A stretch of DNA of 64,000 nt. It comes from Planctomycetia bacterium. Its GTDB lineage: Bacteria; Planctomycetota; Planctomycetia; Pirellulales; Thermoguttaceae. Each line of letters begins with the position of its first letter. Within the stretch, counting starts at the first letter, position 1. Shown here piece after piece: positions 9,377 through 45,366 of this stretch. The stretch spans positions 1 to 64,000 of the forward strand of contig JAUNBR010000001.1 of assembly GCA_030527015.1 (NCBI GenBank), read 5' to 3'. The notes under the pieces are model-generated. The model had not been told where the DNA came from. It worked only from the letters and a program-made list of their open reading frames with translations, and ran no database searches. The position numbers and the translations under genes are program-made.

Positions 9377-9733
9377 CTTTTTTTTATATTTTTATCGCTG
9401 TTTGTTTTTAACCTGATTTTTTGGTTAAAATGGTTTTTTTGATGCCTTTTTTGTGTTTCATATGTTTTCATGGTATGAAGTCTAGAGGAAATCAAAAATT
9501 AAAGAGACAGGTGAAAATAATTAATGTTTGATAAATTTTGCCGCGTATGTTTTAGGTGGAATTTATTTTGAAAAGCAGACATACAGCTCTGACAGCGGCG
9601 TCTGCCGTTTAGAGTTGTTCCAAAATTGTCTTATGCCGGGAACAACCTTTTTTTATTTCTTAAAAAATCTTTCCAGGTATGATATAATAATATGGAAAAG
9701 TTCTGTTTTTTATTTTGATTTTTTAGATAAATC
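9377..9733. other. Non-coding stretch after tRNA-Gly
   Basis: Nothing convincing. A weak stem (CGGC/GCCG near 9595-9607) followed some way on by a T run at 9648-9654 could be an old terminator. Frames here are short and lack ribosome sites. Confidence 0.4.
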
Positions 9734-9837
9734 ATACTGATTTTACCTTAAATTTCCGTTTTGTGTGGCTCTGAAAGCGCGCATTTTCAGCGAAGCTAAA
9801 TGCCGAGGAAGCGGAAATTTATAGTGTATCGGATATA
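9734..9837 (-). mobile_element. TA-MITE upstream of tig
   Basis: Complete; ends about 58 bp before the start codon, so it probably lies in the tig leader or promoter. Confidence 0.87.
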
Positions 9838-9894
9838 TAATGATTTTATCTAGTGTTTTTGTATCATTCTGAAATAAATCCTGGGAAAAGTGCC

Positions 9895-11400
9895 ATGTCT
9901 GAAGATTCGTTATCTCCTGAAGTAGTAAATGATGAGAATGTCTCTGAGGTTTCCGAGAATACCGCTGAGGGTGAGAATCAGCAGCTTTTGCTGGACGTAA
10001 ATGTCGAGCAGCGCAGTGCGTGTGAGCGTCATATCACGGTAACGGTTGCGCGCGAGGATATCGATCGTTTTATGGACAAGGAATTTGACGAGCTGGTTCC
10101 AGAGGCGCAGATTCCTGGTTTCCGGCCGGGTCATGCGCCGCGAAAGCTGGTGCAGCTGCGTTTTAAGAAAGAGGTGGCTGAGCGTGTAAAAAGTGCGCTG
10201 CTGATGGAGAGTATGTCTCAGGTAAATGAGACGGAAAATTTGGCTCCGATCAGTGATCCAGTTTTTGATTATAATGCGGTGGAAATTCCTGATGCCGGGC
10301 CGCTGGTTTTTGAGTATGATGTGGAAGTGCGGCCGGAATTTGAGGTTCCGAACTGGCGTGGAATAAAAATAGAGAAGCCGGTGCGAGAATTTACGGATGC
10401 GGATGTAGACGAAGCGTTCCAGAATTTGCGTGCGCGTTCAGGAAAGTTAGAGGAAAAGGATGGCGCGGCGGTAAGTGGCGATTATATCGAAACGAAACTC
10501 AGTTTCCTGTATCATGGAGAAGTCATTAACAGCAGTGAGAAAGAGGTGATACGCCTGCGTCCACAGCTGACGTTTAATGATGCCACGCTGGAAGATTTCG
10601 ATAAGCAGATGGAAGGTGTAAAGGCAGGAGAAAGCAGAACGCTGAAATTAAAACTGTCGGATTCTGCGCCGAATATTCCTCTGCGGGGCCAGGAGGTGGA
10701 AGCGGTTTTTGAGGTGCAAAAAGTATCAGAACTGATTTTACCAGAGGTGAATGAAGAATTTTTCAAGGAACTTGGTTTCGAGAATCTGGATCAGGTTTTG
10801 GGTGCATTAAGAGTAAATCTGGAGCGTCAGTTGGTGTACCAGCAGGAGCAGTCGGCCAGAGAGGCGATTACCTCCATGCTGCTGAAGGATGCGGACTGGG
10901 ATCTGCCGCCAGCACTTCTGGAACGTCAGACGGAGCGGGAACTTTATCGGAACATGCTCGAATTACAGCGCTCGGGCTTCGCGATGCAGGACATTCAGGC
11001 GTATCAGAATGTTTTATTGCAGAACAGTCGCGAAAATACGGCAAAACTTTTGAAAGAGCACTTCATACTGGAACGTATCGCGGAAGACGAAAAAATTGAC
11101 GCGGAAGACAGTGATTATGATAATGAAATCGCGCAAATTGCGTACCAGACGCAGGAAAGCCCACGGCGCGTAAGAGCCAGGCTGGAAAAAGAGAATCGGA
11201 TGGACGTTTTGCGAAATCAAATTATAGAACGAAAAGTGATTGAGCTGATTATGGCGAATGCTGACTTCACGGAAACCACGTTTGAGCCGTATCCTGCGGA
11301 AGTTGCGTCGCTGAATATGCCGGCCGGTGGTGAGTCGGCACCGCAGTCAGAAGAAGAAGGTTCAGCAGAGGAAAGCTCTTCAGAAGAAAAAGACGCGTAA
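9895..11400 (+). CDS. tig: Trigger factor, ribosome-associated chaperone
   Basis: A 501-residue trigger factor. The ribosome-docking loop GFRPGHAPRKLV (about residue 75) carries the GFRxGxxP signature. A divergent FKBP-like domain follows (about 185-280), then the helical C-terminal chaperone domain and an acidic tail rich in Glu and Ser (last 30 residues) that is longer than in most homologues. The ATG at 9895 is preferred over an in-frame GTG at 9853 because the protein then starts just before the conserved domain and GGGAAAAG lies upstream. It heads a tig-clpP-clpP block, a known arrangement of folding and proteolysis genes; a terminator at 11476-11511 separates it from clpP. Confidence 0.95.
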   Translation: MSEDSLSPEVVNDENVSEVSENTAEGENQQLLLDVNVEQRSACERHITVTVAREDIDRFMDKEFDELVPEAQIPGFRPGHAPRKLVQLRFKKEVAERVKSALLMESMSQVNETENLAPISDPVFDYNAVEIPDAGPLVFEYDVEVRPEFEVPNWRGIKIEKPVREFTDADVDEAFQNLRARSGKLEEKDGAAVSGDYIETKLSFLYHGEVINSSEKEVIRLRPQLTFNDATLEDFDKQMEGVKAGESRTLKLKLSDSAPNIPLRGQEVEAVFEVQKVSELILPEVNEEFFKELGFENLDQVLGALRVNLERQLVYQQEQSAREAITSMLLKDADWDLPPALLERQTERELYRNMLELQRSGFAMQDIQAYQNVLLQNSRENTAKLLKEHFILERIAEDEKIDAEDSDYDNEIAQIAYQTQESPRRVRARLEKENRMDVLRNQIIERKVIELIMANADFTETTFEPYPAEVASLNMPAGGESAPQSEEEGSAEESSSEEKDA

Positions 11401-19907: not shown

Positions 19908-19964
19908 TAGATGTGACCGGAGATGAAAAATATGGGGGGCTGTTTTTTGTCGGAGAAATGTTTT

Positions 19965-20276
19965 TATATCCGATACACTATAAAATTCCGCTTCCCCGGC
20001 ATTTTGCTTCGCATAAAATGCCTGCTTTCAGAGCCGCACAAAACGGAAATTTAATGTGGCGCCAGGATATATCCGATACACTATAAAATTCCGCTTCCTC
20101 GGCATTTTACTTCGCTGAAAATACCTGGCTTTCAGAGCCGCACAAAACGGAAATTTAAAGTGGCGCCAGGATATATCCGATACACTATAAAATTCCGCTT
20201 CCCCGGCATTTTACTTCGCTGAAAATACCTGGTTTTCAGAGCCGCACAAAACGGAAATTTAATGTGGAACCAGGAT
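19965..20276 (+). repeat. Three TA-MITE copies in direct tandem
   Basis: Unit starts at 19965, 20068 and 20172 (103, 104 and 105 bp), all TATATCCGATACAC type, sharing TATA or GGATA at junctions. Nearly identical to each other. Confidence 0.93.
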
Positions 20277-20325
20277 AAGTAAAGCAAAAAGGCAGAAGCG
20301 AAATTTTGTAGAGTATCGGATATAT
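20277..20325 (-). repeat. Right half of an older TA-MITE
   Basis: AGTAAAGC to TATCGGATATA; its left half seems to lie just before 19965, so the tandem array is nested in it. Confidence 0.7.
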
Positions 20326-43226: not shown

Positions 43227-43304
43227 TGCATCTGATTTACTATAAATTTTCATATTTCCTGTCTGCCGGCTGGTCGGCCGCCTTTTTATTCCCGGAAAAA
43301 TATG
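43227..43304 (+). repeat. TA-MITE with GC arm, truncated at the rpe start
   Basis: Left half and GC arm present, right half replaced by the rpe gene; carries CGGAA used as the ribosome site. Confidence 0.65.
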
Positions 43305-44096
43305 TTATCGCGTGAAAAGTTTATGAATTTACCAGCTTCTTCTGCTGTGATATTTCCTTCTTTATTAGCATGTGATTTTGCGAATTTATTGCGCGATATT
43401 CGAAGTGTTGAGGACGCAGGAGCGGAAGTTCTGCATTTAGACATTATGGATGGTCATTTTGTGCCGAATTTAAGCATGGGAATTCCGATCGTAGAAAGTG
43501 TACGAAAGATTACGGATCTGGTTTTAGATGTGCATCTGATGCTTTCAGAGCCTGAAAAATACATTCAGTCATTTCGAAAAGCAGGCGCAGATGTTTTGAC
43601 GTTTCATGTGGAAGCCGTGGCCGATCAGGAAATTTCTGGGAAGAATTTTTCACGAAACGGATGTAAAAATGAGGATATTTGTGACGAAACATGTGCGATT
43701 ATCGAAAAAACGTCAGGTCTTCTAGAAAAAATTCGTGAACTGGGAGCGGCATCAGGTCTGGCGATCATTCCTCCGACAGAGGTGGAGGTACTTGCGCACT
43801 GGACAGAATTATGCGATAATATTTTGATTATGAGTGTGATGCCGGGTTTTGGTGGTCAGTCGTTTCATAAATCGGCTCTGTCAAAACTTCAGTGGTTAAC
43901 TCAAAATATGCCGGAGAAGGTACGCAGAAGTGTGGATGGTGGTGTGAATGAAAACACTCTGGATGCTTGTGTGAATGCTGGCGCGACAGGTTTAGTGATG
44001 GGTACCGCGATTTTTAAGAATCCAGATAGGAAGCAGCAGATGGAAATATTCCAGAAGCAGATCCGCGAATCATGTTCTGCGTCTGATGTTTTATAA
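43302..44096 (+). CDS. rpe: Ribulose-phosphate 3-epimerase
   Basis: A 264-residue TIM-barrel epimerase interconverting ribulose-5-P and xylulose-5-P. Motifs: FPSLLACDFANL, HLDIMDGHFVPN (metal and catalytic Asp), VLDVHLM, SVMPGFGGQ and VDGGVNENT (second catalytic Asp). About 25 extra residues lie in the middle (KNFSRNGCKNEDICDETC), making it longer than the usual 220-235. The start falls at the end of a truncated TA-MITE; CGGAA in that remnant is the only Shine-Dalgarno-like site. An internal Met at 43323 is an alternative. Confidence 0.93.
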   Translation: MLSREKFMNLPASSAVIFPSLLACDFANLLRDIRSVEDAGAEVLHLDIMDGHFVPNLSMGIPIVESVRKITDLVLDVHLMLSEPEKYIQSFRKAGADVLTFHVEAVADQEISGKNFSRNGCKNEDICDETCAIIEKTSGLLEKIRELGAASGLAIIPPTEVEVLAHWTELCDNILIMSVMPGFGGQSFHKSALSKLQWLTQNMPEKVRRSVDGGVNENTLDACVNAGATGLVMGTAIFKNPDRKQQMEIFQKQIRESCSASDVL

Positions 44097-44115
44097 TTTT
44101 GTTGCCGAGACGTTT

Positions 44116-44221
44116 TATATGCCCGATACACTATAAATTTCCTCTTCTCAGGCATTTTTTTGCTGAAAAATGTCTGCTTTAAGAGCCGCACAAAACGGAA
44201 ATTTTAAGTGGAACCAGTATA
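44116..44221 (+). mobile_element. TA-MITE after rpe
   Basis: Complete; stem GGCATTTTT/AAAAATGTC. Confidence 0.87.
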
Positions 44222-44410
44222 AAATTAGAATCAGCATAAGTTTCTGTTACGGGATTCTTGTTTTGCAAAAAATGCTGTAAAATTTTCATAAAAGAGAGAT
44301 TTATGGTGAGGCCAGTATGCTTTAAATTTTTTGAAGGTAAGCATTAAGGACAGTATTTTGTCGTGTGATATGACAGTAAAATAGAAAAAACAGATCGGAT
44401 GGGTTCATTT

Positions 44411-44439
44411 TTGGGGAAATGACAGTAGTGTGTTATAAT
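44411..44439 (+). promoter_or_regulatory. Promoter candidate for the pseudophosphatase gene
   Basis: TTGGGG and a perfect TATAAT with 17-bp spacing, ending 17 bp before the ATG at 44457. The short leader would be 10 nt or so, carrying AAAGA as a weak Shine-Dalgarno site. Confidence 0.45.
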
Positions 44440-44456: not shown

Positions 44457-45128
44457 ATGAGACAGTCGTGGATGTTTTCGTTTCGTAATTCGAGTGATCA
44501 TGAGGATGAAGATTTAAAAATAATTGTCATTCGGCCTGGTGCGACAAGTTATGATTATGAAAGATGTATTCAGGGAGATTTAAGTGTCCGCCTTACAGAA
44601 GCGGGGCGGGGTGAAGTTCGTCTGCTGGCGGAGGAATTAAAAACGGAGGATATTCGTTATATTTATTCGTCACCGAATGAACCTGCTTTAGAGACGGCGG
44701 AGATAATTTCCAGGACATTAAATGTTCCTCGAAAACGTTTAGAAGGATTAAGAAATCAGAATCAGGGATTATGGCAGGGGATGCGCGTGGATGATTTACG
44801 CCGTCTGCAGCCACGGATATACAGACAGTGGGCGGAGTCTCCATTATCTGTGTGTCCACCGGAAGGTGAATCTCTTTTTTATGTGACGCAGCGAGTCAGA
44901 GATGCCATTTCGTCGATTACTCGCCGTCACCGTGGCGGCACCGTGGGTTTAGTGGTGGGAGAACCCACGGCCAGTCTGGTGCTGTGCTGTCTGAAACATG
45001 AAGAAATTCATCATCTTTGGGATCATATCGGAAATCATGGGTGCTGGGAAGAAGTGGATGTGGTTTCTGAAAATAATATGCGAGATGATTTTCAAAAAAG
45101 GTTTCCGAAAACGCTGTTTTCGCGCTAA
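44457..45128 (+). CDS. Histidine-phosphatase-fold protein lacking catalytic residues
   Basis: A 223-residue protein that follows the phosphoglycerate-mutase-like pattern but with the active site replaced. The canonical R-H-G-x-T reads IRPGATSYD (His to Pro27), the SSP-x-x-R-A reads SSPNEPALETA (Arg to Pro), and the second V-S-H-G reads VVGEPTAS (His to Glu). The fold-defining QGDLSVRLTEAGR and ETAEII are kept. It is therefore probably a pseudophosphatase with a binding or regulatory role. A promoter-like pair at 44411-44439 and a terminator at 45162-45197 make it a single-gene unit. Confidence 0.75.
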   Translation: MRQSWMFSFRNSSDHEDEDLKIIVIRPGATSYDYERCIQGDLSVRLTEAGRGEVRLLAEELKTEDIRYIYSSPNEPALETAEIISRTLNVPRKRLEGLRNQNQGLWQGMRVDDLRRLQPRIYRQWAESPLSVCPPEGESLFYVTQRVRDAISSITRRHRGGTVGLVVGEPTASLVLCCLKHEEIHHLWDHIGNHGCWEEVDVVSENNMRDDFQKRFPKTLFSR

Positions 45129-45161
45129 AATAAATGTTTAGCCTGAAAGAATGAAAAATAA

Positions 45162-45197
45162 ACAGACCTGCAGGATTCTTCGGCGGTCTGTTTTTTT
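45162..45197 (+). terminator. Terminator of the pseudophosphatase gene
   Basis: ACAGACC pairs with GGTCTGT, followed by a run of seven T, 33 bp after the stop at 45128. A TA-MITE starts 5 bp later, outside the transcript. Confidence 0.85.
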
Positions 45198-45201
45198 GTA
45201 T

Positions 45202-45307
45202 TATACTGGTTCCACTTTAAATTTCCGTTTTGTGCGGCTCTGAAAGCAGGCTTTTTCAGCGAAGCAAAAAAGCCGGAGAAGCGAAAATTTATAGTGTATC
45301 GGATATA
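45202..45307 (-). mobile_element. TA-MITE between convergent genes
   Basis: Complete; type A stem GGCTTTTT/AAAAAGCC; 5 bp after the terminator. Confidence 0.9.
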
Positions 45308-45366
45308 AAGTAGTCACGGTACAAATTTCTAAAGATTTCGGGAAAATTTTGTGTTGGCAGCGATTA

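Follow-up and report, generated by a model that had tools for sequence, protein, structure and literature searches.

A conserved family of probable pseudo-histidine-phosphatases encoded beside rpe and accD in Planctomycetota

The psiHP locus and its surroundings

The window analyzed here is a 64,000-nucleotide stretch of DNA from a Planctomycetota genome (3.84 Mb, 93% complete). At positions 44457–45128 of its forward strand lies an open reading frame with an ATG start that encodes a protein of 223 amino acids, which we term psiHP (pseudo-histidine-phosphatase). The protein matched Pfam His_Phos_1 (PF00300; E 1.2e-33, profile positions 1–181 of 194), as did 27/27 members of the psiHP family alignment. 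It also aligned gap-free over residues 24–191 (phmmer, E about 6e-22) with the Bacillus phosphatase 1ebb/1h2e, which we take to be PhoE of Bacillus stearothermophilus. These matches bear out the open reading frame and the phosphatase-fold homology proposed in a preliminary description of this DNA. The profile match places psiHP among homologues of the branch-1 histidine phosphatases, from which it would descend. Structure prediction from a three-row alignment gave a pLDDT of 37 and a pTM of 0.27. The sole other His_Phos (PF00300) protein found in the window genome (L087; G000:C100:33349-34002) retains the RHG motif, second Arg and acid Glu; by eye, VTSNG occupies the expected place of the second His.

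Upstream of psiHP, at 43302–44096 on the same strand, is rpe (ribulose-phosphate 3-epimerase; PF00834 and TIGR01163 above cut-off, supported by synteny), its conserved neighbor. In the window, 360 bp separate the two genes, an interval that contains a forward copy of a dispersed 108-nt repeat (44110–44235). A TPR gene converges on psiHP from downstream. The psiHP gene had been credited with its own promoter-like site. Of this, an extended -10-like element (TGTTATAAT, 44431–44439) was visible by eye but with no good -35, and a sigma-70 consensus scan found no forward-strand site just upstream of psiHP, with a scan total not above chance (6 vs. 6.8 in shuffles, sd 2.6). The terminator proposed after the gene was better supported: a terminator-like hairpin followed by T's lies at 45160–45193 (forward strand), within a stretch folding at z -3.6, although the terminator scan, with a loop limit of 8, missed it. 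Just downstream of the terminator, at 45201–45309, an inverted copy of the 108-nt repeat lies on the reverse strand. Given the 360-bp gap with its repeat and the inverted copy behind the terminator, psiHP may depend on its own promoter here.

The 108-nt repeat carries a hairpin in its interior, and its ends are imperfectly inverted (a further example is at 19962–20278). Its 83 matches together occupy 12.8% of the window, and 0/83 lie mostly inside an open reading frame of at least 200 aa. No copy was found in the loci of seven relatives (four from the window's genus besides that of G048), and no Rfam family matches it. A first genome-wide look turned up 1981 candidates; 40 of these were scored, with at least 53 matches. 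We read the repeat as a MITE- or REP-like element that has apparently undergone a very large expansion.

Catalytic residues in psiHP and its relatives

According to PMC3866925, the histidine of the RHG motif is the residue that becomes phosphorylated. When psiHP was aligned to 1ebb/1h2e, 4/5 catalytic residues were found to be replaced. Specifically, R26-P27-G28 (44532–44540) stands where the catalytic R-H-G is expected, P76 (44682–44684) where the second catalytic Arg is expected, and N100 (44754–44756) where the general acid Glu is expected; in G168-E169-P170 (44958–44966), G168 occupies the column of the second catalytic His (all on the forward strand). The roles of the second Arg, the general acid Glu and the second His are general knowledge for the superfamily. 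Only the first Arg of RHG is thus present in psiHP, as R26, and with nucleophile, second Arg, general acid and second His gone, the protein would be incapable of the phosphohistidine mechanism.

The replacements of the RHG His and of the second Arg by Pro agree with those listed previously. The same list had the second His replaced by Glu within VGEP, which is one residue off: E169 is the residue after the His column, and the loss of Glu at N100 had been overlooked. We reject the His-to-Glu reading as a one-residue misalignment on the evidence of 23 active planctomycete paralogues, in which column 168 holds His in 23/23 and column 169 holds N, D, G, R, K or A.

Residue counts were based on 138 profile-matching entries which, less 30 identical or contained sequences, comprised 93 class-level sequences (window included), 10 from other classes and 5 active ones. 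Positions 26–28 fall outside two of the 93 sequences. Left out before counting were repeat loci L089–L092, own-locus copies L001, L086 and L093, the second His_Phos protein of the window genome (L087, L088) and loci L121–L140 (n = 20), of which 19 serve among the 23 active rows and L129 was read separately. Some of the loci are best query matches and hence biased to similar sequences; others were picked for spread.

None of the four lost residues was recovered in the class-level orthologues: 0/91 at position 27 and 0/93 each at positions 76, 100 and 168. Position 27 was P in 72 sequences, S in 11, A in 5 and T in 3; position 76 was P, S, A, C, H or G; position 100 was N in 91, S in 1 and G in 1; and position 168 was P in 63, S in 17, C in 6, A in 4, G in 2 and R in 1. 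R26 was kept in 82/91, an acidic residue stood at 169 in 82/93, and P170 was invariant (93/93). In the ten other-class sequences the RHG His, the second Arg and the second His are absent as well; Glu100 is present in 9/10, and the E-P turn (169–170) is missing. By comparison, the 23 phylum paralogues with ordinary motifs carried R26, H27, R76 and H168 in 23/23, with E in 20 and D in 3 at position 100 (either counted as the acid), but as these rows were sorted by motif before counting, 23/23 describes the group and is not an independent test, for which we turn to the tree.

In the maximum-likelihood tree (67 rows, no outgroup), a branch supported at 100/99 separates the 23 active rows from all pseudo rows, with L129 on the pseudo side. 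Eight rows had been dropped from the tree (repeats L110, L111, L112, L114, L115 and L118; L120, near L083; and the fragment L087). Within this sample, one old loss fits better than repeated decay. Close relatives with an intact R-H-G motif had been named as the observation that would point to simple decay; we found none in the 91 class orthologues covering the site, six other members of the window's genus included, and none in the 10 other-class orthologues. Decay in one genome is rejected, since no orthologue read carries the motif.

The orthologue alignment proposed earlier as a check showed that the altered sites are conserved (N100 91/93, P170 93/93, P27 72/91). When 186 columns were ranked by entropy, P170 came 9th, N100 15th, G28 19th, R26 24th and P27 34th, while site 168 came 66th and the former Arg site 76 came 87th; these ranks are descriptive only, as the sample is uncorrected for relatedness. 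The ranks suggest that the pocket has partly been fixed again with new residues and is not freely drifting. A salt bridge between positions 26 and 169 was sought by co-variation and was unconvincing (74/8 vs. 6/3, p 0.07).

Distribution, gene neighborhood and clean losses

The family-level search returned a match at E<=1e-3 in 56/119 genomes, and for some of these the match is no more than a distant paralogue. Within the window's genus, six further members match psiHP at 51–55% identity, and a seventh (G048) had no psiHP match in this search. At the order level, 293/396 genomes have a match (E<=1e-18), one each, including 218/252 good-quality genomes. Across 294 genomes of the phylum, 29 scored above 170 bits to the family profile (19/21 of the class and 10/273 of other classes), and the next match, at 149 bits, was an ordinary RHG protein. 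The two class genomes below 170 bits were G614, where the gene is absent at the site, and G680, which has a divergent copy in the same place. The G680 copy (L129/L265), which sits between rpe and accD, is a psiHP that has diverged strongly and reads Q26, P27, P76, N100 and D168.

Many genomes share the order scpB-rpe-psiHP-accD-Ser/Thr kinase (scpB, accD and the kinase were named from their sequences, and accD was then confirmed by TIGR00515). Besides the window's own locus, rpe lies directly upstream of psiHP on the same strand in 94/98 testable loci (class 80/82, genus 6/6, other classes 8/10), and accD lies downstream in 82/99 (class 72/83, genus 0/6, other classes 10/10). In the window's genus mrp replaces accD downstream (6/6 relatives), and in the window itself rpe alone is retained. 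Neither gene adjoins the active paralogues (n = 5 loci). At one locus (L054 in G121, 9696–10115) a second histidine-phosphatase-like gene follows accD directly, giving the order rpe-psiHP-accD-HP.

Rpe acts in the pentose phosphate pathway and AccD is a subunit of acetyl-CoA carboxylase. We considered Rpe as the sole partner of psiHP and found this unsupported, as psiHP stays with accD at four loci (L075, L084, L151 and L155) where rpe is not adjacent; in their genomes (G458, G597, G191 and G120) rpe is located elsewhere. No case of loss of both rpe and accD was seen among pseudo loci with both flanks testable. Because psiHP can remain beside one of the two genes when the other has moved away, gene context names no single partner, and operon inertia could account for part of the synteny.

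Several lineages have lost psiHP from between rpe and the next neighbor with both enzymes kept. At eight such loci (seven rpe-accD and one, G048 of the window's genus, rpe-mrp), 23–319 bp separate the aligned ends, and no profile match was found there at E<=1. Such clean absence marks psiHP as an accessory of the operon and indicates that neither enzyme needs it in general. In G204 (L266, 1283–1978), the psiHP that lies between rpe and accD is interrupted by a stop, with two same-frame profile matches; this could be either a fresh pseudogene or an assembly error.

Possible roles and comparison with known systems

A pseudoenzyme is a homologue of an enzyme that lacks the catalytic residues and is conserved in that state, as psiHP is; such a protein also has no catalytic activity, which for psiHP is probable. 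Its altered form is kept across relatives, usually beside the same two metabolic genes, and this makes a new, non-phosphatase job probable. We consider it somewhat probable, from sequence comparisons, that psiHP represents an old Planctomycetota family of pseudo-histidine-phosphatases acting as a non-catalytic regulator or adaptor for Rpe and/or AccD. In such a scheme, the remodeled pocket (R26, N100 and the E169-P170 turn) would form a binding site for a small metabolite or for the surface of a partner, and psiHP could serve as a regulatory or adaptor subunit for the co-encoded Rpe and AccD (acetyl-CoA carboxylase). The conserved altered positions and the gene context support the view, already put forward in the preliminary description, of a conserved non-enzymatic protein; its ligand-sensing or regulatory side is something we infer. 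Co-occurrence does not decide between Rpe and acetyl-CoA carboxylase as the target. A narrower version, in which psiHP would be a non-catalytic metabolite sensor coupling Rpe and the pentose phosphate pathway to AccD and fatty acid synthesis, is tentative and we hold it to be rather doubtful; to our knowledge, no such control layer between Rpe and acetyl-CoA carboxylase is known from other bacteria.

The pocket residues fixed anew (N100, P170 and the acidic residue at 169) could instead belong to a neofunctionalized enzyme, which would use R26, N100 and E169-P170 for a different chemistry without phosphohistidine on a substrate of a neighboring pathway. The other-class members in the same operon, however, have Glu100 and no E-P turn, so that not every member of the family shares the new residues, and we know of no enzyme of the histidine phosphatase fold that works in this way; we regard such an enzyme as unlikely. 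Somewhat less likely again is a heterodimer in which psiHP would be the inactive subunit beside an active histidine phosphatase, by analogy with PspB and PspA. Such a pair would be consistent with the solved structures closest to the family profile (Phosphoserine phosphatase 1), and the window genome does have one other His_Phos protein, but the neighbors of psiHP are rpe and accD and include no phosphatase gene. It is improbable that psiHP is a slowly decaying relic held by its operon position: the clean losses at eight loci and the internal stop in G204 would suit a relic, but not the conservation of the altered positions nor the retention of a match (E<=1e-18) in 293/396 genomes of the order. 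That psiHP is still a phosphatase with another nucleophile is very improbable, for although the phosphate-loop R26 is kept in 82/91, neither position 27 (P/S/A/T) nor position 168 (P/S/C/A/G/R) holds a conserved nucleophile, and the second Arg and the acid are gone.

A non-catalytic role for psiHP would have practical consequences, as annotation based on Pfam would label these proteins as phosphatases or as phosphoglycerate mutases, probably in error across the many genomes (293/396 in the order) in which they occur. It may also hint that planctomycetes control acetyl-CoA carboxylase or Rpe in a way of their own. More generally, an old pseudoenzyme that falls on a single side of a branch and has a fixed neighborhood would lend itself to studying how a catalytic pocket turns into something else. 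In the open-access literature (titles and the starts of abstracts), we found no bacterial pseudo-histidine-phosphatase or psiHP gene cluster.

With regard to known systems, PhoE has the RHG His, the second Arg, the acid Glu and the second His, where psiHP has P27, P76, N100 and G168. PspA (Phosphoserine phosphatase 1; 4ij5, 4ij6) is the best solved match of the psiHP family profile (E 1e-39), and among NCBIfam models the window protein scores best against the PspA family NF045917 (E 1.3e-25). The score of 90.3 bits nonetheless lies far below the curated cut-off of 350, and the catalytic set of PspA is absent in psiHP. PTPRU is likewise a phosphatase fold that has been called a pseudophosphatase, but it is an animal protein with the protein tyrosine phosphatase fold and belongs to another superfamily. 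PspB of Hydrogenobacter thermophilus is reported to be a histidine-phosphatase homologue that is inactive by itself and forms a pair with PspA; psiHP lies in a different gene context.
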